From NCBI GenBank assembly GCA_022822275.1, contig JAJEBZ010000121.1, positions 1 to 34,456 on the forward strand: a DNA stretch of 34,456 bases, read 5' to 3'. Positions 11,498 to 28,636 of the stretch are shown here, piece after piece. Numbering within the stretch: the first letter of the stretch is position 1; each line of letters starts with the position of its first letter. Source of the stretch: Candidatus Poribacteria bacterium (GTDB lineage: Bacteria; Poribacteria; WGA-4E; WGA-3G). The translations under genes were made by a program, and so were the position numbers. The notes under the pieces are model-generated. The model was not told the origin of the DNA. It did not search any database and saw only the letters and a list, made by a program, of their open reading frames with translations.

Positions 11498-11650
11498 ATA
11501 CCAAATTAACATGATTCGTCTTGTTTTCACGGGCGAGGAAACCTCGCTCTACGGACAGTTAGTTCGTTGGTTCATCAGAATACGCGTATGGTATTCTGAA
11601 TTGGTTCGGAAACCGCACCTTCCGCTATGAATCGCGTTAATTGGGTATTA
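11498..11650. repeat. Inverted-repeat element ending at the TonB-receptor stop codon
   Basis: The left end ATACCAAATTAACATGATTC (11498-11517) matches the complement of the right end at 11629-11648 with three mismatches. Interior hairpins include GCGAGGAAACCTCGC and CAGAATACGCGTATGGTATTCTG. The terminal TAATACC on the minus strand provides the TAA stop of the TonB receptor. A truncated copy of the left half lies at 22030-22090. Confidence 0.65.
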
Positions 11651-14611
11651 GAACGTTTGTGTCAAGCGTACCATTGCTAACCTGCCAATTTCTGGTGTGC
11701 CGACAAATTGCTGATGTTTGTGATCCAGCAGGTTTTGTACGGTCACAGACAAACGTGGTTTTGGCCCGAGCGGAATATCATAACCGGCACTTAAATCAAT
11801 GGTGTGGTACGATTCAACTTCACCGACATAAACTCCTGATTGGACGGGGAAACCTTGCACAAAACGCGCCCGGACCCCGACACCTAATCCGAGATTGATG
11901 TTCGTATATTGAATATTAGCACCGAATTTATTCTTTGGTGCGTTGAGTGGAATATCCGCCAGACCGTCTACATTTTCAAATAGGTCTTTGCTGGCAAACG
12001 AATAATTTGCGCCGAGACTCCAACTCGGTGTGAGGAAAAACGTGAAATTCAGGTCTAATCCGTTAAGTGAAATATCCCCGTAGTTTTGATAGGTGAGTAG
12101 AACTGCGTTTGGGTCCGATGCCTGTTCAGGAGTTACGGTACCATAAGGTATATTTTCTAAAATTGTAATCAATTCATCGACGGGAGTGCCGTTTCCATTT
12201 CCACCTTCAGCTGGATTTTCCTCATTCGGTGCGTCCAACGTCATGAGAGACTGTTTTATAGTAGCGTTTTGCGGTTCCTCTAATGCTGCTTCCAGCTGGT
12301 TTCCGAAAGCTTTTTGTAATGAGTCTTTATCAAGAAACACATTGGGGGTTTTAACGAACAACGGACCGAGGTAATCGTTAATTTTTGTGTGATAAACATC
12401 CGCAGAAAAAGCCAGTCTATTCAGAAGAATCCCTTTGTACCCGATCTCATAAGTTTGGGTGATCGTGGGTTTAAGTGGGTCTACATTGTTCACATTTTCA
12501 ACATCATCAAATCTTCCTGTCTGTAAATTAAGTGAGCGTAGGACTTTTTCTAACCCAACAACTTGCTCTGGTAGCAGGTTCGCGAAACCAGCCGATATGT
12601 CTGCTGCCATAGACGCTGCTAATCCTGAGAGGACAGGTTCAGGTATGCTTCCAAGGACTTCAGGGATCAACGTTTGAAGTTGTTCTGGTGGAATTGCTGC
12701 GATTGCCCCGGGGATTTGTAATTCTGCTGGTAGTAGTTGTGCGACACTTTCAGGCAAACTTGAAACTATCGCTTGTATTTCCTCTGGCGATAATCCTGCG
12801 ACGATTGCTGGTAAGTTCTCAGCGGTGAAGGTTTCCTTGAGTCCATCATCAAAGCTGCTTAAAACAGCACCACGTCCGACCCCCCACATGACATTGGTAA
12901 AAACTGGATCATTGAGAGGTATGAACTCATCTGGTTCACGATTTGCCAAGGGGGCAAAAAGTGAACGGAACATGGGTTGTCCATCTTCACTTCTTTTGAA
13001 GGTGAAACCAGTTTCTGGAGAAACACCTTGTGCGCGTATATCAATGCCAACCGTAAATGGGTCAGGTTCAGACAGAATATCAAGGAACAAGTTTGATGTA
13101 CCAGGTGTATTAAAAGCTCGGTTATAAGTCAGTCTAATGTTATGGTCATCATTTGGTTGGAATGCAAGTGCAATCCTGGGAGATAGGATCATGTCCTTTA
13201 AACGATCATGGTAATCTACTCGTCCTGCAGCGAGCAATTTCAACTGTGGTAGGATTTTGGTTTCAGACTGCAAATAACCACCTATTTCGTTAATGGTATC
13301 ATCTTCTTCATTGATTCCATTAATTGTGCCTTTAGTATCCGGTCGCGTAAGTAATACATCTAAACCGTAAGTAAACCTTTGTACATCTCCAATGGCGTAG
13401 CTATGTTGTATTTGCCCTACGTATAGTTTTGAATTGTCAAAGGTTGGCATCCCACTCCGCAAAACATAGGTATCCCCAGCATCGCTGAGATTCAAGAATG
13501 CTTGTGCAAATAGGTCTTTGTAAATGAGGCGTGCTTGAGCATAACCGTAATTCCAATTTTTTGCCTGCCCTGCACCTATACCTGTCAACTCAATACCGGA
13601 GGCTTGTGTTAGTCCGCTTGCAAGGATCACGGTTGCATCATCACTCGGACTATAATCAACACGGAATTCGCCCCGGGCGTGTGAGGTATCAAACAAAGGT
13701 TCCAGTTCTCCTTCAACGTCTTGCGTTAATCGTCCTTCTTCCCAATCATGTCCTCGTGTGTAATTCGCTGTGAGTTTATAGCCGATTGTGTCGTTGATAA
13801 CCCCGGCGTGGCGAAGTGAACCTGTGAGTATGCTTCTTTCACCGCCGCCAACACTGATAGTGGTGCCCTGCGAAGTAAATGGAGAACGGGTAAGAATATG
13901 CATCACCCCGTTGGCACTGTTCGGACCGTATAACGCTGCACCGGGACCTGAGACGACTTCAATCTGTTCAATATCTTCGCTGATAGTAGGTATAAGCGTG
14001 TATGCGTTCACACGCAGCGAAGGGACACTTGCAATGCGATTGTCTACCAGTGACAGCAGGTTACCCGAAAACACGTTGTTAAAACCTCTGACAACAACAT
14101 ACGAGGTGCCGATCCCTGATGTTACAACATCTACAGCCCGTAAAGATTTTAGGTGTTCCGTAACACTCAGTGCCACACGGTCTTGGATTTGTGAGTCACC
14201 AACAAGTGCCACCGATGCTGGTGCTTCAAGTACTTTCTCTTTCCGGCGTGATGCCGTGATGGATACTTGGTCAAGTTCAATAATCTCTGTGGAAAGTTTG
14301 ATTTCAACAGGTTTTGTTTCATCTGCAGTAAGTTGAATGTTTGTCATCTGTTTTTCAGCATATCTTTCTGCAGAAGCAGTAATCGTGTAACTTCCTGCGG
14401 CTAAATCAGTCAATTTGAGTGTACCGTTTGCGTCGCTAACCCCCCGTGTAGCATCCCCGGTTGGGGGTTTGACGATAACGGTAACATTGTTGAGTTTCTC
14501 TCCAGTTTGAGCGTCTGTAACTGTGATGTCTAACGTAGCGGCAATTGCTATATTCGAAACAGCGAATAAAAGAACCAACAACGTTATACTAATTGGTCTC
14601 AATCGTTTCAT
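11648..14611 (-). CDS. TonB-dependent outer-membrane receptor
   Basis: A 987-residue receptor. The signal peptide is residues 1-24 (LLVLLFAVSNIAIA). A carboxypeptidase-regulatory-like Ig domain covers about 25-108. A TonB-box-like DQVSITASR precedes the plug domain (about 120-240; VEVVSGPGAALYGPNSANGVMHILT). The beta-barrel runs to the C-terminus, which ends in the classic aromatic residue (RLTQTF). It should import a large ligand across the outer membrane using TonB energy. An unusual Ala/Leu/Pro-rich helical stretch (about 595-690) sits inside the barrel region. AAGGAG lies 9 bases before the ATG. No partner transporter genes adjoin it, so the ligand is unknown. Confidence 0.92.
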   Translation of the reverse strand: MKRLRPISITLLVLLFAVSNIAIAATLDITVTDAQTGEKLNNVTVIVKPPTGDATRGVSDANGTLKLTDLAAGSYTITASAERYAEKQMTNIQLTADETKPVEIKLSTEIIELDQVSITASRRKEKVLEAPASVALVGDSQIQDRVALSVTEHLKSLRAVDVVTSGIGTSYVVVRGFNNVFSGNLLSLVDNRIASVPSLRVNAYTLIPTISEDIEQIEVVSGPGAALYGPNSANGVMHILTRSPFTSQGTTISVGGGERSILTGSLRHAGVINDTIGYKLTANYTRGHDWEEGRLTQDVEGELEPLFDTSHARGEFRVDYSPSDDATVILASGLTQASGIELTGIGAGQAKNWNYGYAQARLIYKDLFAQAFLNLSDAGDTYVLRSGMPTFDNSKLYVGQIQHSYAIGDVQRFTYGLDVLLTRPDTKGTINGINEEDDTINEIGGYLQSETKILPQLKLLAAGRVDYHDRLKDMILSPRIALAFQPNDDHNIRLTYNRAFNTPGTSNLFLDILSEPDPFTVGIDIRAQGVSPETGFTFKRSEDGQPMFRSLFAPLANREPDEFIPLNDPVFTNVMWGVGRGAVLSSFDDGLKETFTAENLPAIVAGLSPEEIQAIVSSLPESVAQLLPAELQIPGAIAAIPPEQLQTLIPEVLGSIPEPVLSGLAASMAADISAGFANLLPEQVVGLEKVLRSLNLQTGRFDDVENVNNVDPLKPTITQTYEIGYKGILLNRLAFSADVYHTKINDYLGPLFVKTPNVFLDKDSLQKAFGNQLEAALEEPQNATIKQSLMTLDAPNEENPAEGGNGNGTPVDELITILENIPYGTVTPEQASDPNAVLLTYQNYGDISLNGLDLNFTFFLTPSWSLGANYSFASKDLFENVDGLADIPLNAPKNKFGANIQYTNINLGLGVGVRARFVQGFPVQSGVYVGEVESYHTIDLSAGYDIPLGPKPRLSVTVQNLLDHKHQQFVGTPEIGRLAMVRLTQTF

Positions 14612-15170: not shown

Positions 15171-18100
15171 TTATTCTGAAAGATCGTAGTGGAGCATACC
15201 ACGCTTCATTGTACCGACGTATAATGTATTTCCATCAATAGCCAGAGAAGTTACTTTATCAGGCATTTCTGATACGATTTGTTCCCATGTGCCGTTTACT
15301 AAGAGGTAGACACCTGTTTTCTCAGTAATTCCACAAAGCCATTTATCATCAGTAGCTAAGTGTTCCATAACGAGATTTTCTCCTGCTGCATCCGTGATAG
15401 CTTGCCATTGTATTCCATTACTTGACATAGTTACACCAGCATCCGTTGCTACATAGATTTTGGAGCCCAAGTATTTGATATCTTTGAAGGCGATGATAGA
15501 AAGTGGAAGTCTTGGTGTGATATCTGTCCAACTATCTCCTCTATCATGAGATACAAGGAGGTGTCCGTCCCGTTTGCCAACGTATACAGTATCACCTGAA
15601 GCAGCGAGTTTGAAGTTTTGCATGACCCTGAACATTTCAAGTGCTTTTCCTTTTGGTACACCAGCGGGAGACAAACCAGCGGGAAGATAAGTACCATTTG
15701 GTAACTTGATAGTTAGACCAATAGTCTCCTCTACACCGGTATCGTACCATTCTTTTTCACCTTGCTTCCATCTCAACAGTTTGAAGTTATATTCTAAGTA
15801 GAAAGTATCTCCACTTACTGCCAACGCTCCGTTTAGGCCTCTATCTATGAGATGCCGTTGTATTTGTACAATTTGCCCCTGCCTAAAGTGGTTCTGCGAA
15901 TCACTTTGTGCTACTTCTACCAAATCCTTGAAAAATTGAGTTGCCCCAACAAAGTTTTCTTTTTCTTGAAGTTCTTCAACAAACATCAACATTTTGGAGT
16001 CCAGGGTTGGCGGACCTTTTATCTGTTTTAACGTATTACCGTCATCAGAGATCTGATAGAGACTGACTTCATCGGCAACCCTTTCACCTTTTGCATAGAG
16101 TGTATCATCAGCGGTTATTATTCTGAGAATTCTCGGTTGATCATCCCTTACAGGTGCTGTCATCGGTACATCCAGTTTTATGGATTTCCAGGATTTGCCT
16201 TTGTCGGTAGTTTTTACTATTGTTCTCCAAGATTTTGCATAGACTGCTGGTTGTATTCCTTGCGATTTATCGCTTCCGTCATAAACGATTAGATTGTCAA
16301 TTATATTTCGCGCAAACCTCCTTTTAGCGGGCATCTTAATACTGTCCCATGACTTTCCGCCATCACTTGAACGTTTGAAACCGTCGTCACTACCAACATA
16401 GATGATATGGTCATTTAATACAGCTGCAGGCGAGTAGGACTCCATTGAAGGTGAAACATTGGGTTTCAATGGCGGCAGCCATGTATCCCCTGCATCAGTT
16501 GATGCGACCATACCTTTCTCCATTATCAAGATGTTCTCACCAGCAGCGATTAGCGTTGCATAGGGTGGAACTCCTTTTATTGGCCAAGCGTTTGTCGGTG
16601 TTATATCGTTCCATGTATTCCCTAAGTCAGTTGAACGAAATATCCACCATGTGCGTTGTTGTTCCTCATCTACTATGCTGCGAAAGTAGTCGCGATCTAA
16701 TACCATTACATACAAATAATCTTTCGTTCCTGCAACTGTATGTACATAAATTGCTTCAGGGGTTGGAAAATCTAATTTTTTCCAACTATCATTGTCCCTG
16801 CGATAGAATCCTTTGTCTGATGTAGCAAATAGTGTGTTTTGGACAACTGTGATAGAATTGGGTGTGTTTGGAAATTCATCGCTCATGTCCTTCCAAGTTT
16901 TGCCTTGGTCTTCAGAACGATAAATTGTTTTTGGAAAAATCAGATAGAAAGCATTTTCTGTTAACACCATATCCATCGGATACCAATTCCTTGCATTTGC
17001 TTCAACAGGTCCTTCCAGTTCATGTATCAAATCCCACGTTTTTCCGTCATCTTTAGAAGCATAGAGTGTATGATGCCACATCATATAGAGGATACCGTTC
17101 CACTTTTCCAGAAGTGTTTCGCCATCTATAAAGTTCTTTTTTAATGAACTCATATCAATGATATGTTCCCAACTTTCACCATCGTTTTCCAATTTGTAGA
17201 GGTGTCCACCCGTAGACAAAGTGTAAAGTTCACCTTCGGGTGTTGTCAGTAAATTCCTTGGATAAACGAAAGTTTGACGTTCATATTCTACCCACTGTTT
17301 TTTAGGCACAGAATTGTCTCCAGCGTTATCCTGAGCAGCTGCTAATGACACCTCATCTGGATTCTGTTGACTGTTATTCGTATTGCCGGGGGCATTTGAA
17401 TTACCGAGTTGGCGGCGCGCATCAGGTTTCGTATCAAGATTTAGTAAAAGTGGCGCGTCAATGAGTTCAACCGTCGTTTCAGTCTGTGCATCTAAGCTAT
17501 AGGGTTGTTGAAACCGGGCTGAGAATTGGCTGCTGATACCCAACATTATTACGATCAAGACAGCACCTGTTGCAGCAGCTACCCAAGGGATGATAGGTTT
17601 GCTGGAAGCGGGTGCGGTAGGTTTTAGACGAGCAACTTCTTTTAAGATATTGTCGGTCAGATTTGGTGATATTTGAAAATGTTCGAGTGCTTCTTTAATC
17701 ATGGTTTCCTCCTTCTGTAATCGGTTCCGTGCGCGTTGTAGACGACTTTTGATCGTTCCCGCAGAAACTCCGATAAACTTGCTTATCTCTTCGATTGTCA
17801 TCTCACCGAGATAGTGAAGTGTCATGACTGTGCGTTCACTCTCTTTCAATTTTGCGAGCAGTTTTTTGACAACTTCACGTTGTGTCTCAACGGCAGTTTT
17901 TGTCCGTTCCTCAACGACATGTTGGGAATAGAAATCTTTCTCTGGCATCGTGGTTTCTTCGTCTTCCAATGGTTGCGTTGGGATTCGTTTTTTGCGGTGC
18001 CATGTAGCACATAAGTTGGCAGTTATTACATAGAGCCACCCTGAAAAGAGGGTCGGTTCTCTCAGTGTGTGAAGTTCTTGAAAGACTTTTAGGAAGACCT

Positions 18101-18251
18101 CCTGTGTAATGTCTTGTGCGATATGGAAATCTTGAGTTTTTCGCCATGCAAGCGCGTGAACCTGTTTTTTATACTGATTTACAAGTTCGGTGAATGCTGC
18201 TTCATCGTCAGCGAGAATTCGTTGGATGAGTTCTACAATATTATTTTCCAT
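15171..18251 (-). CDS. ECF sigma factor fused to membrane-anchored BNR/sortilin-like propeller
   Basis: A single 1026-residue reading frame. Residues 1-180 are an ECF sigma factor: region 2 (DFHIAQDITQEVFLKVFQEL; FSGWLYVITANL) and region 4 helix-turn-helix (MTIEEISKFIGVSAGTIKSRLQRARNRL). Residues 180-218 form a short linker with ISPNLTDNILKEVARLKP. One membrane helix covers about 220-242 (VAAATGAVLIVIMLGI). The rest is predicted to be outside the cytoplasm: a low-complexity Asn/Gln region, then seven or more Asp boxes (SKDDGKTW, SEDQGKTW, STDLGNTW, STDAGDTW, SSDGGKSW, TTDKGKSW, SHDRGDSW), typical of sortilin/BNR propellers. It may be a one-protein transmembrane sensor that must be cleaved or recruits polymerase at the membrane. 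No clear Shine-Dalgarno is seen. Confidence 0.9.
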   Translation of the reverse strand: MENNIVELIQRILADDEAAFTELVNQYKKQVHALAWRKTQDFHIAQDITQEVFLKVFQELHTLREPTLFSGWLYVITANLCATWHRKKRIPTQPLEDEETTMPEKDFYSQHVVEERTKTAVETQREVVKKLLAKLKESERTVMTLHYLGEMTIEEISKFIGVSAGTIKSRLQRARNRLQKEETMIKEALEHFQISPNLTDNILKEVARLKPTAPASSKPIIPWVAAATGAVLIVIMLGISSQFSARFQQPYSLDAQTETTVELIDAPLLLNLDTKPDARRQLGNSNAPGNTNNSQQNPDEVSLAAAQDNAGDNSVPKKQWVEYERQTFVYPRNLLTTPEGELYTLSTGGHLYKLENDGESWEHIIDMSSLKKNFIDGETLLEKWNGILYMMWHHTLYASKDDGKTWDLIHELEGPVEANARNWYPMDMVLTENAFYLIFPKTIYRSEDQGKTWKDMSDEFPNTPNSITVVQNTLFATSDKGFYRRDNDSWKKLDFPTPEAIYVHTVAGTKDYLYVMVLDRDYFRSIVDEEQQRTWWIFRSTDLGNTWNDITPTNAWPIKGVPPYATLIAAGENILIMEKGMVASTDAGDTWLPPLKPNVSPSMESYSPAAVLNDHIIYVGSDDGFKRSSDGGKSWDSIKMPAKRRFARNIIDNLIVYDGSDKSQGIQPAVYAKSWRTIVKTTDKGKSWKSIKLDVPMTAPVRDDQPRILRIITADDTLYAKGERVADEVSLYQISDDGNTLKQIKGPPTLDSKMLMFVEELQEKENFVGATQFFKDLVEVAQSDSQNHFRQGQIVQIQRHLIDRGLNGALAVSGDTFYLEYNFKLLRWKQGEKEWYDTGVEETIGLTIKLPNGTYLPAGLSPAGVPKGKALEMFRVMQNFKLAASGDTVYVGKRDGHLLVSHDRGDSWTDITPRLPLSIIAFKDIKYLGSKIYVATDAGVTMSSNGIQWQAITDAAGENLVMEHLATDDKWLCGITEKTGVYLLVNGTWEQIVSEMPDKVTSLAIDGNTLYVGTMKRGMLHYDLSE

Positions 18252-18653: not shown

Positions 18654-20114
18654 CTATAATCTTTGTCGGAGTCTGAGGGTTCTGAGCCATCTTTGTGCTT
18701 GAGGTATTGAGGTGTCAAAGGGTTCTTTCATTTCGAAGCATTCTGTTTGTCCGGCGTAGATGTGGTGCCAGTCGACAATGCAAGGCATCTTTTGCTTCTT
18801 TAGGTTTCGCATCAGATAGCCTCGAACTCTTGCCCGGGTGTCACGGGGGGCATTGCTGATTGCATGGCTAATTTGCTGGTCGGTGATGACACGTCTCATG
18901 CAACCTTCGCTTTGAAGTGCATAGAAGATGCTGCTATTGGGGTCAATATTGTGGTATTCTAAATCAAGGCTTTTGAGCCATGGGTCGTCCCATGTCAAGT
19001 CCTCTTCTGCGATTAATGCGTCAAGGAACCATTTTTTGGCTGCCCAATCCAGACGTGTGGTGAGGCGTGTCCAGTCTATTTCCAGGTCATTCAGCACGGT
19101 TTCCCATTCGGTGAGTATCCATTCCGTTGTTTCGTCAGGCTGGATCAATGTGTCTTGGACAAAATTGAGGTATTCACGTTGAATGTCAATAGCGGAGATA
19201 GTTTTTCCGTTCTGTAGTTCCACCTCCCACGTAAGGGATGTATCTCGTGAGATATGTTTGATAGCGGCGATAGGGTCTAAGAGGTCGAGATGGGGTATAG
19301 GAAGTTTTTCACCGTAAAGTTGATAATACCGTTCAATTGCGTCAAGGACGAGTGCGGTAGTTCCGACCTTCAGTGCGTTTGCGTATTCTGACATGTTGGT
19401 ATCGCCGACGAGGAGATGGAGTCTGCGATATTTGGTATAGTCGCTGAGCGGTTCGTCCCGTGTATTGATAATTGCGCGGCTAAACTGGATCCATTCATAG
19501 ATTTCGGTGACGATGTGGTCTGCCCTTTGTGAGATTTGGTATCCGCTGAAGTCGTCGACGGTATATTGTCCATCGCCAAATTCCAGGATGTCGTCGTATC
19601 CGCCGACTCTCCCTGCTCCTGCGAAGATTTGTCGTGTAACAAAGAAGGGTAGCAATGTTGGAATAACGATTTTATAGAAGGGGACATCGCGTCGTGCTTG
19701 GAAGTTTTCGTGGCATCCGAAAGTTGCGCCTGTGTAATGGTCTATATTATTTTTGTAGAATGCGACGTGTGCGGAAATGCCGGTGTCTTGTAGGATTGCG
19801 GTGATGACGTGTTCAATGGCTTTATCGTAAGCGATAAGGTCGAAAAGCGTTGCGCATTCTGGTGTGGCATATTCAAGGTGCCCCATGTCGATATAGAGTC
19901 TGCCTCCGTTGAAGAGGAATCCGCCATTACCGGGCGGTTCACCCCAATCACGATAGTGGAGATCGGGGATACCGAGTTCAAGTGTTTTGAAGGTATAGTC
20001 TCTGACCCGTGCAGCAATGCCTTCAGGTGAGACTTTGATGCGTTGTGTCTGTATAGTTTGTGATTGGATCATGCACCCGAATTCGGTTTCGATTCCCATT
20101 ATTCTGTGTGTCAT
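18654..20114 (-). CDS. pafA: Pup/UBact-protein ligase, PafA-like
   Basis: A 486-residue member of the PafA/Dop carboxylate-amine ligase family. It joins the C-terminal Glu of the Pup-like tag to target lysines using ATP. The N-terminus RIMGIETEFG (4-13) matches PafA closely, with the magnesium/ATP glutamates E9 and E11. The catalytic Asp is D76 in NGGRLYIDMGHLEYATPEC; the usual SHPEY is HLEY here. Other shared blocks are FYKNNIDHYTGATFGCHENF, PFFVTRQIFAGAGRVGG, SQRADHI, INTRDEPLSDYTKYRRLHLLVGDTNMSE and LKVGTTALVLD. The C-terminal CIVDWHHIYAGQ...KEPF matches PafA rather than Dop. Unlike the paralogue at 23991 it has no Dop loop. It is separated from prcA by the restriction-modification pair. 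Confidence 0.9.
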   Translation of the reverse strand: MTHRIMGIETEFGCMIQSQTIQTQRIKVSPEGIAARVRDYTFKTLELGIPDLHYRDWGEPPGNGGFLFNGGRLYIDMGHLEYATPECATLFDLIAYDKAIEHVITAILQDTGISAHVAFYKNNIDHYTGATFGCHENFQARRDVPFYKIVIPTLLPFFVTRQIFAGAGRVGGYDDILEFGDGQYTVDDFSGYQISQRADHIVTEIYEWIQFSRAIINTRDEPLSDYTKYRRLHLLVGDTNMSEYANALKVGTTALVLDAIERYYQLYGEKLPIPHLDLLDPIAAIKHISRDTSLTWEVELQNGKTISAIDIQREYLNFVQDTLIQPDETTEWILTEWETVLNDLEIDWTRLTTRLDWAAKKWFLDALIAEEDLTWDDPWLKSLDLEYHNIDPNSSIFYALQSEGCMRRVITDQQISHAISNAPRDTRARVRGYLMRNLKKQKMPCIVDWHHIYAGQTECFEMKEPFDTSIPQAQRWLRTLRLRQRL

Positions 20115-20120
20115 GGGTTT

Positions 20121-20158
20121 TTCCTCAATTGGTTAAAGGTTCCTCAATTGGTTAAAGG
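20121..20158. repeat. 19-bp tandem duplication spanning the pafA ribosome-binding site
   Basis: TTCCTCAATTGGTTAAAGG occurs twice back to back (20121-20139 and 20140-20158). On the minus strand each copy holds TTGAGGAA, so the pafA leader carries two candidate ribosome-binding sites, the nearer one about 7 bases from the ATG. Next to it, 20167-20181 is an odd palindrome (TTGCATTTAATGCAA) overlapping the end of the endonuclease gene. Confidence 0.75.
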
Positions 20159-20182
20159 TTAATATCTTGCATTTAATGCAAT

Positions 20183-20902
20183 TCAATCAGTGCTTTTTGC
20201 AAAATGTTCTTCCTGATACTTTGAGAAGTAATATAAAACAGAACGTTCTGCAATGTCTTTCATAATGTTAAACATTTCCTCAGCTGTCCATTCATCTTCA
20301 CGAAAATAGAAACTACCACGGTTGAAACGACCATCTTCCTCGTTGAAGAGATATGTTTTATTCAGTTTACCAAACATTGACATGGTCGATACCTTATCCA
20401 GGGTTGTGGAGGTTTCCTCAAAGTCGCAACCATATCCAAAACAAACAAAAGGGAAGATGCTTTCACGTAATAATGCGGTGCGAAAACCTATTAAGTTTTT
20501 TCCGAGACGCTCAATTGCGTTTCCTTTTGATTGCTTACGTAATCCTTCTTTTTTTCTTAAATCGTTTGTTCCTTGTCTTTTAACCTCAGAAATCAAAATT
20601 GGATAGGTTAAACTACTATCCGTTCTGCTCTTTATAGCAAGAATGCCTCCATCTGGTCTCATACTGGTGTTATCAAATAGGCAATGTAAATCGGTGCCAG
20701 GGTAAAATGGTATTAGTTCCTTAATGATGTCTTTCAATAACCATTGTTTCTTATGAGTCAAAGTAATTCTTTCTGCAAATTTGTCATCCAAATATAAAAC
20801 AACTTGTTTAAGTGCCTTGATAAGTTCAGTTTCTTGTTTTTTTGAATTTACGTTGATGATAGTGTCTTTTCGCAGTTCTCGTAGTTGGTCTTTATTTGCC
20901 AT
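20183..20902 (-). CDS. EcoRI-family type II restriction endonuclease
   Basis: A 239-residue protein with the EcoRI active site. D84 in MRPDGGILAI corresponds to EcoRI Asp91 (KPDGGIVEV). E106 and K108 in LISEVKRQG correspond to Glu111 and Lys113 (VAEAKHQG). The recognition-helix segment GNAIER (127-132) is identical to EcoRI residues that read the DNA bases, and LRESIFPFVCF matches LSESHFPYVLF. The predicted target is therefore GAATTC, cut on both strands. It is shorter than EcoRI (277 residues). GAGAGGAA precedes the ATG. The start overlaps the methyltransferase stop by 11 bases. The region is visibly richer in A+T than the proteasome genes around it, suggesting acquisition by transfer. Confidence 0.88.
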   Translation of the reverse strand: MANKDQLRELRKDTIINVNSKKQETELIKALKQVVLYLDDKFAERITLTHKKQWLLKDIIKELIPFYPGTDLHCLFDNTSMRPDGGILAIKSRTDSSLTYPILISEVKRQGTNDLRKKEGLRKQSKGNAIERLGKNLIGFRTALLRESIFPFVCFGYGCDFEETSTTLDKVSTMSMFGKLNKTYLFNEEDGRFNRGSFYFREDEWTAEEMFNIMKDIAERSVLYYFSKYQEEHFAKSTD

Positions 20903-22007
20903 TGAAATTCCTCTCTACAAGAAACATTTGCTCAGTGACATGGAGATTTCGGTTTCTTAGATTTCTTGAACCTCGGAAGGTGTTGTAAACGATCTCAAAT
21001 TCGTTAACAGAACCGATTTCTTTAAGCATTAACCGCATTTCTTCAGGATTGATAAATCCTTCATTATTAAATGATATAAGAAAAAACTTTGTGTCAATTG
21101 AATGTAGTAACTCATTAAATAGTTTTTTTGACTTTGTCTTTACGTTGTAACCTGAACGTTTCCAATCTTTTGGGATACCTGATATTCTGCTTATGTTTAC
21201 AGGTTCTTTGTAATGCACTAGTAAGTTCAACATGAAGTAGTTTGAACCGTAAGGATGTTGATTGTAAGGAGGATCAATATACGTAAGATCTAAATTCTTG
21301 ACTTGACTAACAACTTTATTTGTATCGTCATGAAAGACTTCGTAATCACATTCAAATTGACTCAATATAGGCGGTTCTAAAGTAATTTGCCCTTTTATAC
21401 GAGTTAGGGCATTAGATTTTGTACCGCCATATTGTCCTATTCCAGTATGTCTGTTTTTATAGAATCCCTTAAATACACCTGATGTGTTAGAATGAATAGA
21501 AGCCTTGCTAAGAAGTGGTGCTAATAGAGAATCACGATATTCTAATGGATATTCCTCAATTAACCTCCGGTAGTTGTCTAATCTACGGGCATTTTCCTGT
21601 GTATAAAAGACTCTATCATTTAAGGTAATATTCATTTCATCTTTAGGGGCGTAAAGTTTTTCAATAAAACCTTTAGGAAACTGTTCGTTTACGCGATTGT
21701 TAATTTCCTTGACAATTTTAGAAATAGAAAATAAATCAACTGAGCTGCGGTTCTGTAGATAACACCGAGCAATTGTAGCAGCATAATCCTCAAAATCGTT
21801 GCTTGCTATATAAGAAGCATAAGCCTTCATAAAACGGGAGACTACACCAGAACCGCTAAATGCGTCAAATACACGAAGGTGAGACTTACCGGTTCGCTTT
21901 TTCACTTCAATTATTGCTTTGTTTATATGACTCAGCAATGAACGCTTATTCCCTATGTATGTGATAAGTTGATTTGAAAGATAATCAATGTCTTCTATTT
22001 TTATCAT
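20892..22007 (-). CDS. Adenine-specific DNA methyltransferase (D12-like), R-M partner
   Basis: A 371-residue N6-adenine methyltransferase. Motif X is TYIGNKRSLL (16-25), motif I FDAFSGSGVVS (47-57) and motif IV DPPYNQHPYGSNY (245-257), in the order expected for the D12/alpha class. It presumably methylates the site cut by the endonuclease whose gene overlaps its 3' end by 11 bases, protecting host DNA. From memory it does not resemble M.EcoRI itself, which belongs to a separate family, so the pair looks mixed. The ribosome-binding site is weak. A truncated intergenic repeat (22030-22090) lies immediately upstream. Codon use is AT-rich compared with flanking proteasome genes. Confidence 0.87.
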   Translation of the reverse strand: MIKIEDIDYLSNQLITYIGNKRSLLSHINKAIIEVKKRTGKSHLRVFDAFSGSGVVSRFMKAYASYIASNDFEDYAATIARCYLQNRSSVDLFSISKIVKEINNRVNEQFPKGFIEKLYAPKDEMNITLNDRVFYTQENARRLDNYRRLIEEYPLEYRDSLLAPLLSKASIHSNTSGVFKGFYKNRHTGIGQYGGTKSNALTRIKGQITLEPPILSQFECDYEVFHDDTNKVVSQVKNLDLTYIDPPYNQHPYGSNYFMLNLLVHYKEPVNISRISGIPKDWKRSGYNVKTKSKKLFNELLHSIDTKFFLISFNNEGFINPEEMRLMLKEIGSVNEFEIVYNTFRGSRNLRNRNLHVTEQMFLVERNFNGK

Positions 22008-22029
22008 GTTAAATTACTCAATATTATGT

Positions 22030-22090
22030 AATACCAAATTAACCTGATTCGTCCTGTTTGCATAGGCGTGGAAATCTCGCCCTACGGACA
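22030..22090. repeat. Truncated intergenic repeat at the R-M/prcA border
   Basis: It begins ATACCAAATTAACCTGATTC and continues with a GGCGTGGAAATCTCGCCCTACGGAC-like hairpin, matching the left half of the element at 11498-11650. The right half is missing and the sequence runs straight into the 3' end of prcA. On the minus strand its GTCCGTAGGGCGAG supplies the last codons and the TAG stop of prcA. Confidence 0.65.
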
Positions 22091-22861
22091 ATTTTTTGGT
22101 CCAAGTGCGGTTTGGATTTCGTCTTGTGTTAGCAGTCGGAATTTGGTATCTGCGGGTAGGTTTGTATCTAATATCCCCACCTCAATTTCGCCATCCTCTA
22201 ATTCTGTTTTTATGATTTCGTGTATCTGTTCGTCTGTGACTTCGGTGTTGTCTTCTGCGTCCTCAAAGCGTTTGCTTAGCCCTTTTCCGACAGCCCAAGT
22301 ATTGAGTGCTAACTGAAGTGCGGTGTTGAGGTCGCGTTCTGCATCAGTTTGTGTGGCAGTCAGGTATTCTTGCATTGCATTTTCGATTTCCAAAGTGCCG
22401 CCAATCACAGCTGAGTCGTGTTGTACCTTTACGTTGCCGTCATAGTTGATATGTGTGAATTGTGTTTTGGCATCCCCATTTCCGATTTCCACGAGTAGCA
22501 TTTTGATGATGTATGCTTCCCCGACGATTGCCTCAAATGCCTGTTTGAAGGTATGTGCTAAGACATAATGTGTGAGTCTATGTAGGTTTACATCTTCGGT
22601 AGCACTTTGGAAGGATTGTACGCTTGCGGTATCGGTTACGAGCATGCGTAGTCGTTCAATGTCTGCGGGGTGTCCGATAGCGGAAAGGGCGATTCGGTCA
22701 TGAACTTCAAATATTTTCTGTGCCCCTTTTGTAACAGTCAATAGGAGGCTGCCTTGTGCATAAGGGAGCCCGACGACGGGGCTTCCGAGTCTGAGTTGGT
22801 CTTCGATGTAGTCGCGCCGGTCCTGAATTGCTTCAATCCAACGATACGGCAGGTCGCGCAT
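22082..22861 (-). CDS. prcA: 20S proteasome alpha subunit
   Basis: A structural, non-catalytic ring subunit of the bacterial 20S proteasome. From the ATG at 22861 it has 259 residues, beginning MRDLPYRWIEAIQDRRDYIEDQL. The alpha-type core appears in SPVVGLPYAQGSLLLTVTKGAQKIFEVHDRIALSAIGHPADIERL. The start is chosen because the prcB TAA overlaps it as TAATG, which implies translational coupling; an upstream in-frame start would give seven more residues. The last residues (NCP) and the stop lie in a repeat-derived sequence, so the native C-terminus may have been altered. Confidence 0.9.
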   Translation of the reverse strand: MRDLPYRWIEAIQDRRDYIEDQLRLGSPVVGLPYAQGSLLLTVTKGAQKIFEVHDRIALSAIGHPADIERLRMLVTDTASVQSFQSATEDVNLHRLTHYVLAHTFKQAFEAIVGEAYIIKMLLVEIGNGDAKTQFTHINYDGNVKVQHDSAVIGGTLEIENAMQEYLTATQTDAERDLNTALQLALNTWAVGKGLSKRFEDAEDNTEVTDEQIHEIIKTELEDGEIEVGILDTNLPADTKFRLLTQDEIQTALGPKNCP

Positions 22862-23727
22862 TATGTAGCCTCCGCGTAGCAATCTTTTAGGTATTTATCG
22901 GGGAGTGTTTCCACACCCTGTTGTGTTATGGTTTTGACAGTGGGGAAGATTTCTGCTTTTGCGTTGTATCCACTGGTAGCAGCGTCATATTCGCTTGCGG
23001 TGTCGAGTAGTCTTAGAATGGTGATTGTTGCGGTGCGTTGGTCCATCTGTTCTAAGCGTGTATCTCCCCATCGGTCGAGGTAACGCAGGACTCCGCGTAT
23101 CCAGACTGAGCCGGAACCTGTTGTGGCGAAATCGACGTTCTCAAAGTGTGCGCCGAGTGCGTCGTAGAAGTATATTTTACCGCCATTCTCAGATTCATCA
23201 GTTTGTGGAGCGTATAAGGCGAAAATGGGGATAACCGCACCGATGCCTTGCATTGCCATTGGCAGATTATCACGGATAAGCCGTGAAAGCGTTCGGAGTT
23301 TACCTTCCACACTGAGTTCTTGGAGTTGGCTGCGTCGGAAATATTGGAAGGAGTGTTTTAGGACTCTTGCGATCTCGTACGCCATTGCTGGTGCGCCCGA
23401 GATTGCGAGTACGGAGTGTGAATCGATTGGAAGGACTTTCTCAGCCCGGTCATGAACGACAGAAGTGCCTGCGGTTGCGCGCCGGTCGCCTGCGATGATA
23501 ATGCCGTCATTGTAACGCATTGCGACAACTGTTGTGGCTTCCGTGAATTCTAACGTAGGAGCTTGCGTTGGTATTTGAAAAGCGTCCCGCATAGCATTTT
23601 TTGTGCCGTGTAAAGTATCAAGTGTTGCGTTTAGTTTGCCATCTGATGCGTTGCGGGTAGTTTTCGTCTCACCGTGCGAGGTGTCTGCGTGTTTCAGTAG
23701 GCTGAGAAAGTCACCTTTATGGTTCAT
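22861..23727 (-). CDS. prcB: 20S proteasome beta subunit (catalytic)
   Basis: A 288-residue proteasome beta subunit made as a pro-protein. The predicted active N-terminal threonine is T65 (EA|TTVVAMRYNDG). The partner residues fall at the canonical spacing: D81 (Asp17, in AGDRR) and K97 (Lys33). The residue before the cleavage site is Ala rather than the usual Gly. The 64-residue propeptide is similar in length to that of actinobacterial PrcB. The SGAPAMAYEIARVLKHSFQYFRRSQ block matches the family. Its ATG overlaps the UBact TAA stop as TAATG, and its own TAA overlaps the prcA ATG in the same way. Confidence 0.93.
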   Translation of the reverse strand: MNHKGDFLSLLKHADTSHGETKTTRNASDGKLNATLDTLHGTKNAMRDAFQIPTQAPTLEFTEATTVVAMRYNDGIIIAGDRRATAGTSVVHDRAEKVLPIDSHSVLAISGAPAMAYEIARVLKHSFQYFRRSQLQELSVEGKLRTLSRLIRDNLPMAMQGIGAVIPIFALYAPQTDESENGGKIYFYDALGAHFENVDFATTGSGSVWIRGVLRYLDRWGDTRLEQMDQRTATITILRLLDTASEYDAATSGYNAKAEIFPTVKTITQQGVETLPDKYLKDCYAEAT

Positions 23728-23729
23728 TA
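23725..23729 (-). promoter_or_regulatory. TAATG stop-start overlap, UBact/prcB
   Basis: The stop of the tag gene and the start of prcB share one A. The same arrangement recurs at 22859-22863 between prcB and prcA. This should tie synthesis of the tag and the two core subunits together by translational coupling. Confidence 0.8.
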
Positions 23730-23924
23730 TTCCCCTGTCCTTTGTCGGTATCGCCTTGATTGGTCTTTGTCGACGCGTCGCATCCGTTTTAGGAGTTCTT
23801 GTGTGTCGGGTCTATTGACATCAGGGCGTTTTGGTGCGTTGCTATCGTCTCCGCCATCATCGGGCCCGATTGGTTTTACGGGTCTCTGTTTTCGTTCTGG
23901 GAAGTAGACAGTTTGGGCTTTCAT
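23727..23924 (-). CDS. ubact: UBact/Pup-like protein tag
   Basis: A 65-residue, highly charged and probably disordered protein lying exactly where pup lies in actinobacteria (dop, pup, prcB, prcA order). It ends RRYRQRTGE: the C-terminal Gly-Glu is the conjugation site in Pup-type tags, and the RxRQRxGE ending is characteristic of the Pup homologue named UBact in several Gram-negative phyla. Because the last residue is already Glu, no deamidation by Dop is needed. Residues 40-58 (DTQELLKRMRRVDKDQSRR) could form the helix that docks on the ATPase coiled coil. AAAGGAG lies 8 bases upstream of the ATG, a strong ribosome-binding site. Confidence 0.93.
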   Translation of the reverse strand: MKAQTVYFPERKQRPVKPIGPDDGGDDSNAPKRPDVNRPDTQELLKRMRRVDKDQSRRYRQRTGE

Positions 23925-23990
23925 TGGTATATCTCCTTTTTTTGCTTTTTTGAAGCAGCTTAATCTTACAAACTTCTCCTACAAGATAGG

Positions 23991-25508
23991 TTAGCTTAAA
24001 CCGAGTTTTTCAACGAGGGTTTGGGGGTTAGGGGATAAGTCAAGAGCTTCATTATATTTTTGTGCGATTTCAGGATTTGCGAGTGAGTTCATGTTTACAG
24101 TAACAGGTTTTCCATTAATTTCAAACGTAATGCTGTCCCATTGGACAGTTTTGATTGCGTCTTCAAATTTGTTTAGTGATTTTCCACGGAAGTATGCGCG
24201 CGTGTCCGAGGGTGGTGTGTGCATAGCGTTATGCACCTGTTCGTCGGTTACGACTCGTTGCATTTGTAATCCGTAGTACAAACCTTCTTCTAAATCGATG
24301 TTGTGGTATTCTAAATCGATGCTTTGTAGCCATGGGTCGTCCCATGCGATGTCTTCAGCTTCAACAAATGTTTCCAGTAGCCATTTTTTTGCGACCCAAT
24401 CGAGGCGGTCGGTAAGTGTCATGGGATCGTTTTCGAGTGCGTTGAGTGTTTCCTCCCATTCTTTCAGTACCCATTCGGTATCACTATTTTGGTTTGCGAG
24501 ATGTTTTTGTGCGAGTTCCAGGTATTCTCTTTGATGGTCAATAGCGGAGATCATTTTTCCATCAACTTTTTGTAACATCCATCGATACGTTTGGTCGTGC
24601 GAAATGGTTTTGATGGTATCGATGGGATTTGCGATTGCGAAAGATGCGGGTATAAGCCGCTGTTCAATTAGGTCAATTACGAGAGCAGTTGTTCCGACCT
24701 TGAGTGCAGTTGCGTATTCGGACATGTTTGCGTCCCCGACGATTCCGTGAAGTCTACGATATGTTGCGGGGTCAGCGTGTGGTTCGTCTCGTGTGTTGAC
24801 GATTGGTCGTTTGTGCATTGTGTCCACACTTGCTTCGACGTGAAAGAAGTCGGCGCGTTGTGTAAGTTGAAAATGTCCGGGCGTTGCGAGTCCTGCTTCA
24901 GTTTCAATCCCTATTTTGCCAGCACCTGCGAAAATTTGTCGTGTTACAAAAAACGGGAGGATGCTTGCTTTTAGGTAATTAAAAGGCACTTCTCGTGCCA
25001 TTAGGTAGTTATCGTGGCATCCGTAGCTATGTCCATAAAAGTCGGTATTGTTTTTGTATAATAGGACGCGTTGTCCGAGTTCACTACTTCGTCTTTCAGC
25101 GCATTTATGGAGTATTCTTTCCCCCGCTTTGTCGTGTGCGACGAGGTCAAAGAGGTTTTGGCATTCAGGAGTTGCGTATTCAGGGTGTGCGTGGTCGTTG
25201 TAGAGTCTTGCGCCGTTGACAAGTATTCGGTCACTTTTGATTTCTCGGAATGAGCGTCCCGGTTGATTTGCGAATCGTTCTCTGTCTCGTTTTTCTTCCT
25301 CCACTTCGTCGGGGTGGTTGTTGAGTTGTTTTGCTCGGAATCCGCGTTCATCTCGGAACGGGTCTTCTCCGTCATAATCCCATAGGGGCAAAAATGGTTC
25401 TCTACGATAATTTTTTATAAGTTCGATGGACTCCTTAACGGGGTCGATCTGTTCAGCATTTTCGAGCGTGATACCGTATTCGGTTTCTATTCCAAAAAGT
25501 CTGTGCAT
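23991..25508 (-). CDS. dop: Depupylase, Dop-like
   Basis: A 505-residue paralogue of the ligase. It removes the tag from proteins and, in species with Gln-ending Pup, deamidates it. The N-terminus LFGIETEYGI has the ATP/Mg glutamates. The catalytic Asp is D105 in NGARLYNDHAHPEYATPEC; DHAHPEY is the Dop form. The insert at about 42-85 (WDYDGEDPFRDERGF and following) matches the Dop loop that distinguishes Dop from PafA. Further shared blocks are LYKNNTDFYGHSYGCHDNYL, PFFVTRQIFAGAGKIG, IVNTRDEPHADPATYRRLHGIVGDANMSE and VQWDSITFE. It lies between the ATPase and the tag genes. Deamidation should be dispensable here because the tag ends in Glu. Confidence 0.92.
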   Translation of the reverse strand: MHRLFGIETEYGITLENAEQIDPVKESIELIKNYRREPFLPLWDYDGEDPFRDERGFRAKQLNNHPDEVEEEKRDRERFANQPGRSFREIKSDRILVNGARLYNDHAHPEYATPECQNLFDLVAHDKAGERILHKCAERRSSELGQRVLLYKNNTDFYGHSYGCHDNYLMAREVPFNYLKASILPFFVTRQIFAGAGKIGIETEAGLATPGHFQLTQRADFFHVEASVDTMHKRPIVNTRDEPHADPATYRRLHGIVGDANMSEYATALKVGTTALVIDLIEQRLIPASFAIANPIDTIKTISHDQTYRWMLQKVDGKMISAIDHQREYLELAQKHLANQNSDTEWVLKEWEETLNALENDPMTLTDRLDWVAKKWLLETFVEAEDIAWDDPWLQSIDLEYHNIDLEEGLYYGLQMQRVVTDEQVHNAMHTPPSDTRAYFRGKSLNKFEDAIKTVQWDSITFEINGKPVTVNMNSLANPEIAQKYNEALDLSPNPQTLVEKLGLS

Positions 25509-25568
25509 GCTTTATTTCTTTCTTTGGTGTTCCAATAATTGCGTGATGTTCTGGGCTGAAGTCATGAA

Positions 25569-27452
25569 CTAAATCACCGGGCTGGGTGTTTTTCGGTGTT
25601 CCCTTTTTTCAGATTGAATAGGTGTAACTTTTACGACATTGACTGGGTCGTAATCCAATAGTTTTAGCCAATCCTCTGTAGCTTCTGTGGGCGGGAAGAT
25701 ATCATTTTCGCTGAATTCTGCGTTGAGAGCGTCTATGAGATCATCTGAGGAGATGCCGGTTTCTGTATCTGGGTCAGCGATTGCGCGTTTCATTGCGGTT
25801 TCTTTCGCTCTTTGTACGATAGATTCAATGATTGCGCCGCTGCAGAGATGTCCACGGTAGAGGATATCACGGCGTCCGCTTCGTAGTGCGACTTCGAGGA
25901 ATCGGTTTTCAGTTGATTCACGAAACATTTCGTCAACGACCTGTGTAATCAACCCGTCAATGACATCTTTATCAGCAATATCTTCTGTAACGTTTTCGAT
26001 GGGCAGTTCTGGTGTAAGATAGATACTGAATATATCTTTTGCCGCCTCTTTATTGGGTCGTGTTACTTTTATTTTTCTATCGATTCTACCTGGTCGGAGG
26101 ATTGCTGGGTCAATTAAGTCGGGTCGGTTTGTTGCGAGTATGATGACGACCTCTTGCAAAGGTTCGATGCCGTCCATTTCTGCGCAGAACATTGGTACGA
26201 GAGTGTTAGAGATACTGTGTGATCGCATAGCGCGTCGAGTTCCCAAAATAGATTCGGCTTCATCGATAAAGACAAATGCGAGTTTGCCTTCATCTCGTTT
26301 TTCGCGTGCTGCGAGGAAGATTTCTCTGACTTTCCGTTCCGATTCTCCCAACCACATGTTTAGTATTTCGGGCCCTTTGATGTGTAGGAAAGTGCCTTCG
26401 ATTTCTTCACCGGTTTCAGTTTTGAGGCGTTCCGTAAGGTTGTAGGCAGTAGCTTTTCCGATTAGGGTTTTGCCGCAACCTGGTGGGCCGTGGAGTAGAA
26501 AACCTTTCGGTACAGTATATTGAAATCGTTTGAAGAGTTCAGGGTGCAATATTGGTTGTTCAATCGTGTCTTTAATTCGTTGTATAGTTTCGTCAAGTCC
26601 ACCGACTTTTGACCATGGGATTTGTGGTACTGCTTCAAGGGCGTAGTCGTTGCGTTCTTTTGCTTCGATACGTTCTATTGCGACTTTTAGGCTGGCATCG
26701 AGTCGGACTTCGTCTCCAGTCTTTAGTTTTATATCTATGAGGTTTGCGGCGCGTTCGATAATAACGGATTGTAGGCTTGGTTCAGAACCGACTCGGAGTC
26801 TACCGTCTGGTAGTATGTCGGCAATTTTTGCGATTGGTCCAGATTCGTTATATCCGAGTTCGCCGATGACGACAAATGCTTCGTTTAGGAGGACGTTAAC
26901 GCCTTTTTTGAGTTTTTCGGTTTCCAGTTTTGGGTCGATATTTGCATAGTATTCGGAACCGCCGATGGTAACGCGTGCGGTTTCGTCTGTTGGGACTGCC
27001 AGGAGCGTTCCGATGCGGTTCGCTGGTGCTGTCAGTTTTTCGATTTGTTCTTCCATCTCAGTGAGTATGACTTTTGCTTCCTGTTCGATGGCACGGACTC
27101 TGTGTCGGAATTCGCCTTCATCGTTGATGATAGATCGGCGCAATTCAATCAACCAGCGTCTTCTTCTATCTTCCACTGGGGTATCTGATATGATCTGATG
27201 TATTAGTTGTAAGGAATAACCGGAACTTGCGACATCTTCCTCAATAACATCGTCATCAATTGGGTCGTACTCGTATTGGTTCTGTTCGGTGGGTCGTCGA
27301 GAATATCCGAGATTTGTTGTATCTTCTTCAATATTCTCATCTTCATCGCGTTCCAACTGATCATCGGTTTCAATTGATTTTTGGTTGTAGCGACTTCTGC
27401 GATCCTTACTATACTTCTCTTTATCGTCTTTATACTTCTCTTTATCGTTCAT
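25569..27452 (-). CDS. mpa: Proteasome-associated AAA+ ATPase (Mpa/ARC-like)
   Basis: A 627-residue ATPase that unfolds tagged proteins and feeds them into the 20S core. In order: an acidic, probably disordered N-terminal tail of about 85 residues; a coiled coil (about 105-142), which in Mpa binds Pup; tandem OB-fold domains (about 145-260; LLAVPTDETARVTIGGSEYYA); and the AAA+ module with Walker A GPPGCGKT (322-329), Walker B FVFIDEAES (393-401) and ATNRPDLIDPAILRPGRID. The protein ends TPSPVI and lacks the QYL/HbYX-type tail with which Mpa docks on the core. GAGGAGC lies about 8 bases upstream of the start. It is the first gene of the operon. Confidence 0.92.
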   Translation of the reverse strand: MNDKEKYKDDKEKYSKDRRSRYNQKSIETDDQLERDEDENIEEDTTNLGYSRRPTEQNQYEYDPIDDDVIEEDVASSGYSLQLIHQIISDTPVEDRRRRWLIELRRSIINDEGEFRHRVRAIEQEAKVILTEMEEQIEKLTAPANRIGTLLAVPTDETARVTIGGSEYYANIDPKLETEKLKKGVNVLLNEAFVVIGELGYNESGPIAKIADILPDGRLRVGSEPSLQSVIIERAANLIDIKLKTGDEVRLDASLKVAIERIEAKERNDYALEAVPQIPWSKVGGLDETIQRIKDTIEQPILHPELFKRFQYTVPKGFLLHGPPGCGKTLIGKATAYNLTERLKTETGEEIEGTFLHIKGPEILNMWLGESERKVREIFLAAREKRDEGKLAFVFIDEAESILGTRRAMRSHSISNTLVPMFCAEMDGIEPLQEVVIILATNRPDLIDPAILRPGRIDRKIKVTRPNKEAAKDIFSIYLTPELPIENVTEDIADKDVIDGLITQVVDEMFRESTENRFLEVALRSGRRDILYRGHLCSGAIIESIVQRAKETAMKRAIADPDTETGISSDDLIDALNAEFSENDIFPPTEATEDWLKLLDYDPVNVVKVTPIQSEKREHRKTPSPVI

Positions 27453-27814: not shown

Positions 27815-28456
27815 CTATGTTTCTCCGTTCCATTCCAATGGCCGGTTATCCAGATAGGGTTGCAGCAATTCACGAAGTCTTCGGTGTGCGTGATGTAGGT
27901 GTGTTTTGACTGTTCCCTCAGAACGATTTATTCGGGCAGCGATTTCTTTTATCTTTAGTTTCTGGTCATAGCGGAGTTTGAAAACGTGCTGTTGTTTCGC
28001 GGGAAGTTGTTGTACTGCCTTGTTAATAATATCTCCGAGTTCCTCCATCTCAACGAGATGAGACGGTGATGGGTATTTGCTAATCAGCAACATTTCTTCG
28101 GGTCTTCCAGTTAATTCGTCAAAGGTGATAGTTTTATTCCTATTCTGTTGTCGCAGATAGTCAATACAACAATTTATAGCGATTCGATATAGCCAGCTGT
28201 AGAATGCGGAGTCGCGTTTGAATTTGGGTAATGCTTTATAGGCTTTTAGGAAGACATCTTGGCATAGGTCTTTTGTTGTTTCTGTGTCTTTGATGTGTCT
28301 ATAGATGAGATTTGCTATGCGTGTTTGGTATTTCAGGACGAGTGTGTTGAAAGCTGCTGTATCCCCGTTCTGAAAGCGGGTTACTAAGTCGTGTTCATCG
28401 ATTAGTTCAATTTCATCTGTCGATAATAAATAGGGGTGTCTTTTTGTGTCTGGCAT
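27815..28456 (-). CDS. ECF-family RNA polymerase sigma factor
   Basis: About 213 residues starting at the ATG at 28456. GAGGAG lies 7 bases upstream, better than an in-frame GTG at 28471. Region 2 is visible as ETTKDLCQDVFLKAYKALPKFKRDSAFYSWLYRIAINCCIDYLRQQ, and the region 4 helix-turn-helix as KIKEIAARINRSEGTVKTHLHHAHRRLRELL. It resembles the RpoE/SigW-like group. No anti-sigma factor gene follows: downstream is a hairpin and then the proteasome operon on the same strand. It could be a regulator of that operon, but nothing in the sequence shows it. Confidence 0.9.
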   Translation of the reverse strand: MPDTKRHPYLLSTDEIELIDEHDLVTRFQNGDTAAFNTLVLKYQTRIANLIYRHIKDTETTKDLCQDVFLKAYKALPKFKRDSAFYSWLYRIAINCCIDYLRQQNRNKTITFDELTGRPEEMLLISKYPSPSHLVEMEELGDIINKAVQQLPAKQQHVFKLRYDQKLKIKEIAARINRSEGTVKTHLHHAHRRLRELLQPYLDNRPLEWNGET

Positions 28457-28636
28457 TCGAATTCTCCTCACTATGCGGACGCATAGGTTGCTATTTTAAT
28501 TGTATATTTACCTTTTTGAATTGTTTTAATTTATACACCTGTCTTGGTAAAAAGTTCCTTGTTTCTATTTGGTTAGACAACTCATTTTGTGTTTTTGTTC
28601 AAATACCCGGAAGATAGTTGTTATGATGGTCAAATT

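Follow-up and report, generated by a model that had tools for sequence, protein, structure and literature searches.

The window, which is the whole stretch of 34,456 nucleotides analyzed here from a Candidatus Poribacteria genome, carries a six-gene UBact proteasome operon on its minus strand. The following features were assigned.

25569-27452, minus strand: UBact-type proteasomal AAA+ ATPase, a homologue of Mpa/ARC (Pfam PF00004, PF17758, PF16450)
23991-25508, minus strand: Dop-type depupylase/deamidase homologue with a Dop-loop insertion (PF03136, Pup_ligase, 559.5 bits)
23727-23924, minus strand: UBact tag of 65 amino acids, C-terminus RTGE, net charge +6 (PF20513, 66.7 bits)
22861-23727, minus strand: PrcB, 20S proteasome beta subunit with propeptide (PF00227, Proteasome, 78.3 bits)
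22082-22861, minus strand: PrcA, 20S proteasome alpha subunit, ATG start (PF00227, 26.4 bits; cut-off, 22.4)
20892-22007, minus strand: D12-class N6-adenine DNA methyltransferase, between prcA and pafA (PF02086, 63 bits)
20183-20902, minus strand: type II restriction endonuclease of the EcoRI family, in the same orientation as the operon (PF02963, 50.3 bits)
20121-20158, minus strand: 19-base perfect tandem duplication, CCTTTAACCAATTGAGGAA twice, read directly from the sequence
18654-20114, minus strand: PafA-type UBact ligase without a Dop-loop (PF03136, Pup_ligase, 453.8 bits)

Identity of the UBact operon

The window ATPase contains the AAA domain and both proteasomal OB domains above the curated Pfam cut-offs, and its best match in the PDB was Mpa (5KWA, 347.7 bits). 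It consists of an acidic N-terminal region, the OB domains and the AAA module, and its C-terminus is PSPVI and not the Mpa-type [YF][LF]. The Dop homologue scored higher against Dop (4B0R, 420 bits) than against PafA (4B0T, 265 bits) in the PDB, and higher with the NCBIfam Dop profile (488.6 bits; cut-off, 492.3) than with the PafA profile (391 bits). By NCBIfam score alone, the PafA is ambiguous (Dop, 360 bits; PafA, 356 bits); it was called a ligase because of the missing Dop-loop, its operon position and its place in the ligase tree described below, and not because of its sequence score. The best PDB match of its structural model (pLDDT 85.0) was the PafA-Pup complex 4BJR. The catalytic Asp and the metal-binding motifs are conserved in both PafA and Dop, and in PafA the RDEPH motif is altered to RDEPL. 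RDEPH was invariant in the canonical enzymes aligned, while RDEPL was found in 21/21 Poribacterial UBact PafAs and in 10 of the 14 UBact PafAs of other phyla. The altered motif near the active site of the UBact ligase could change its activity.

In PrcB, Thr1 is residue 65, and the alignment to Rhodococcus PrcB (1Q5Q) runs from the mature N-terminus; Thr1, Asp17 and Lys33 are all conserved. PrcA, for which a TTG start at 22882 is a possible alternative, gave the weakest Pfam match of the set. Its AlphaFold2 model was confident (pLDDT 90.4), and in the PDB the model was closest in fold to chains of the M. tuberculosis proteasome (TMt about 0.89). The window thus contains linked PafA- and Dop-type genes with their catalytic residues as well as a linked 20S core and proteasomal ATPase.

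The tag scored 74.6 bits with the NCBIfam UBact equivalog NF033388 (cut-off, 35) and also matched PF20513 above its cut-off; with its RTGE terminus, it fits the family ending R[TS]G[EQ]. In contrast, all five NCBIfam equivalog cut-offs of the canonical Pup system were missed by the operon (PafA, 356 versus 551; Dop, 488.6 versus 492.3; ATPase [pup_AAA], 450.7 versus 504.75; PrcA, 67 versus 139; PrcB, 163 versus 191.9), indicating that the window set is of the UBact type and not a canonical Pup set.

A previous sequence-only reading of this DNA had proposed that a Gram-negative lineage here carries a complete UBact operon. This was confirmed: all six genes lie on the minus strand at the stated positions, and profile matches, catalytic residues and predicted folds are all intact. 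The HMM searches that it suggested gave matches to the Pfam families Pup_ligase, UBact and Proteasome, all above the curated cut-offs, and neither a lack of UBact profile matches for the 65-residue protein nor a loss of ligase or core catalytic residues was found. The canonical order on one strand holds for ATPase, Dop, tag, PrcB, PrcA and PafA, but two genes intervene between prcA and pafA. The tag had also been described as ready for conjugation without deamidation. A tag ending in Glu indeed needs no deamidation in principle, but this is not special to UBact: Gln was the C-terminal residue of 2/30 Poribacterial UBact tags, and of the 26 Pup tags examined across the phylum, 11 ended in Glu. 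The presence of outer-membrane proteins nearby was borne out by a TonB-dependent receptor at 11648-14611, which supports a diderm host. The operon does represent Gram-negative UBact, but as an example of pupylation outside the actinobacteria it is not new, since UBact operons in Gram-negative bacteria have reportedly been described already.

Two genes for sigma factors flank the operon. An ECF sigma factor gene (27815-28471, same strand) lies directly upstream, with a homologue in the same position in a related genome (G042, locus L118), and may encode a regulator. Directly downstream, 15171-18251 encodes a 1026-aa protein with an N-terminal ECF sigma factor and C-terminal sortilin/BNR beta-propeller repeats (Pfam), possibly a one-piece sensor-sigma factor. 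The CCTTTAACCAATTGAGGAA duplication spans the ribosome-binding region just upstream of the pafA start.

Restriction-modification genes within the operon

The endonuclease encoded between prcA and pafA matched EcoRI (1QPS) with 42.4 bits, with the PD...ExK motif aligned. The GC content of the insert is 34-37%, versus 46-49% for the flanking operon genes. Among the relatives read out, only one (G030) has the pair in the same place, and its methyltransferase shares 91% identity with that of the window. The EcoRI-family nuclease was present in 18/85 genomes of the phylum. The foreign genes in these UBact operons appear to be mobile defence genes that have inserted there.

In the operon of the sister species G030, a TnpB-like gene has been added beside the pair (L239, 12584-14071). 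In another genome, G028, the UBact operon has a reading frame of about 1,009 amino acids between its prcB and prcA genes (L111, 5231-8294); this frame resembles a combined restriction enzyme and adenine methyltransferase and is unrelated to the pair in the window. GAATTC was not avoided in 45 kb of the genome's own sequence (16 sites observed, 13.8 expected), and prediction of the nuclease recognition site from palindrome avoidance was dropped, as neither GAATTC nor CAATTG gave a signal.

The Pup-type cluster and the distribution of both sets

The genome contains four Pup_ligase genes, two on the contig of the window and two on another contig, C285. The latter carries recA, ATPase, Dop, Pup, PrcB, PrcA and PafA. 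Its Pup ends in GGQ and fits the canonical ending GG[QE]. The cluster exceeded the canonical NCBIfam cut-offs for ATPase (713.8 bits), Dop (569.5), PrcB (282), PrcA (233) and Pup (49.2), and its PafA (524.9 bits) was just below the equivalog cut-off of 551.3. Within the genome, one UBact and one Pup were above cut-off, and two PrcB/PrcA pairs were present along with a separate HslV-like gene (contig C92, 4655-5167), which encodes a third proteasome-related protease. While the sequence-only reading was correct on the completeness of the UBact operon, it missed both the restriction-modification cassette and this second cluster.

Both sets are retained across the phylum. The UBact tag was found in 76 and the canonical Pup tag in 78 of the 85 Candidatus Poribacteria genomes, and 71/85 had both; Pup_ligase was present in 83/85, with at least four copies in 70. 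All six single-contig genomes had both tags, roughly 0.85-1.2 Mb apart. Of the 20 genomes read out, most keep the six-gene synteny of both clusters. In three deep-branching members of the class (G011, G009 and G008; loci L114, L116 and L117), the UBact cluster consists of tag, PrcB, PrcA and PafA, and ATPase and Dop are not alongside. Many Verrucomicrobia also have a reduced local UBact cluster.

Outside the Poribacteria, canonical Pup was found in 0/48 UBact-bearing genomes (Verrucomicrobia, Latescibacterota, Armatimonadetes and others), a sample chosen for resemblance to the tag of Poribacteria, which may miss rarer dual cases. Most of those checked had exactly two Pup_ligase copies.

Relation between the two sets

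In a tree of 110 ligase-family proteins, the Poribacterial proteins formed four groups. PafA of the Pup set, including that of C285, grouped with actinobacterial PafA (support 99) and Dop of the Pup set with actinobacterial Dop (support 91), whereas PafA and Dop of the UBact set grouped with UBact PafA (support 100) and UBact Dop (support 93) of other phyla. No protein crossed between the UBact and Pup sets in this tree. Recent duplication within the Poribacteria was therefore rejected, because the outside lineage with which a set groups is not the same for the two sets. The deep joins of the tree were weak. A single origin of all Dops was not rejected (AU test, P = 0.37), and the orthology of UBact Dop and canonical Dop accordingly rests on best scores and the Dop-loop.

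The catalytic residues of both sets are intact. For the twelve genes of both sets in four species pairs, dN/dS was mostly 0.02-0.13, indicating that both are maintained by strong purifying selection. The outlier was PrcB of the UBact set in the pair G039-G040 (0.47), with very few synonymous changes.

The two sets also differ in charge. The isoelectric points of the tags in the same 21 genomes were 9.6-11.1 for UBact and 4.05-4.5 for Pup, with no overlap. Those of PafA differed in the complementary direction, at 4.6-5.3 in the UBact set and 6.4-9.0 in the Pup set. Global PafA charge is only suggestive, however, because actinobacterial PafA, which uses acidic Pup, has a pI of 5.7; as proof of insulation it was weakened by this control. 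The ATPase N-terminal region is acidic in the UBact set, in contrast to a long coiled coil in the Pup set. At the C-terminus, [VIA][IV] is the ending of all 34 UBact-type ATPases read, both Poribacterial and from other phyla, and [YF][LF] that of all 20 Pup-type ATPases read.

In the account that we propose, PafA would link UBact, through its C-terminal Glu, to lysines of the substrate by an isopeptide bond, with glutamine-synthetase-type chemistry, and the Dop homologue would take the tag off. The ATPase hexamer may recognize the basic, disordered tag via its acidic N-terminal region, unfold the substrate and thread it into the PrcA/PrcB 20S core. A second pathway of the Pup type, encoded elsewhere on the chromosome, would act in parallel, using a separate ATPase, Dop, tag, PrcB, PrcA and PafA, and differences in tag charge and in the surfaces of ATPase, core and ligase may keep the two at least partly separate. 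This cell probably has two tag-proteasome pathways of separate ancestry that run in parallel and are insulated from each other at least in part. We infer that both systems conjugate, that tags and cores are not shared and that different substrates or conditions are served.

The main alternative is that both systems are active and not insulated, so that tags, ligases and cores cross-react in one mixed pool and the second set serves mainly as dosage or back-up. The enzymes and subunits of the two sets are homologous, with 32-44% identity; both tags end in G-E/Q, and the active sites are conserved in both Dops, all of which favour this view, and the core subunits of the two sets might mix. We nevertheless consider a single pool unlikely given the opposite, nonoverlapping tag charges, the different C-termini and divergent N-terminal regions of the ATPases and the lack of gene exchange between the sets in the ligase tree. 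It is even less probable that only one system degrades and the other is nondegradative or specialized, for instance in regulatory tagging or phage response. The penultimate Tyr/Phe of Pup-type ATPases is absent from the UBact type, and foreign restriction genes lie within the UBact operon in three genomes read; both points favour such a role, but each set retains, under purifying selection, an ATPase and a 20S core whose catalytic residues are intact. That the second cluster is a binning artefact of this metagenome-assembled genome, and the window part of an ordinary UBact genome, is hardly credible: although C285 is a short contig (10.6 kb) in a bin of 320 contigs with 1.8% contamination, the one full-length recA in the bin lies on it, 71/85 genomes and all six single-contig genomes have both clusters, and in the tree the bin's own sequences are placed among the closest relatives. 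The single-contig genomes and the recA linkage led us to reject contamination as the origin of the second set.

The two parallel pathways may go further and form a mutually insulated, natural orthogonal pair, in which an acidic and a basic tag each have their own ligase, depupylase, unfoldase and 20S core, kept phylum-wide. We lean toward this stronger reading, with somewhat less confidence than for partial insulation. Tag-directed proteasome systems outside eukaryotes are usually thought to occur once per organism. A full-text literature search gave no description of UBact and Pup in one organism, although the founding UBact paper was outside its coverage and a prior mention is possible. The UBact operon alone is ordinary, and it is the paired systems that make the locus interesting. 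A phylum with two complete, oppositely charged sets is a natural test of recognition among tag, ligase, depupylase, unfoldase and core, and a Gln-ended tag (Pup) can be compared with a Glu-ended tag (UBact) in the same host background. The pair also raises the question why two degradation codes should be necessary in one bacterium, and it is a source of candidate orthogonal components for bacterial targeted protein degradation.

Compared with known systems, the restriction-modification pair resembles EcoRI-type type II systems in its endonuclease, including PD...ExK, and in the adjoining adenine methyltransferase, but differs in that, in two sister species, it lies within a proteasome operon. 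The operon itself is like the UBact conjugation system attributed to Lehmann et al. 2017 (BBRC 483:946-950), as cited in PMC12751074, in tag family, gene content and operon order and in exceeding the UBact equivalog profile; the difference is that a complete Pup system coexists here, whereas Pup was absent from all 48 of the UBact genomes of other phyla tested. With the actinobacterial Pup-proteasome (Iyer 2008, PMC2588565; Hecht 2020, PMC7947786), the window set shares the same six functions and chemistry. The C285 cluster groups with the actinobacterial set in the tree and reaches most of its equivalog cut-offs, whereas the window set is below every canonical cut-off and has a basic tag and another ATPase C-terminus.
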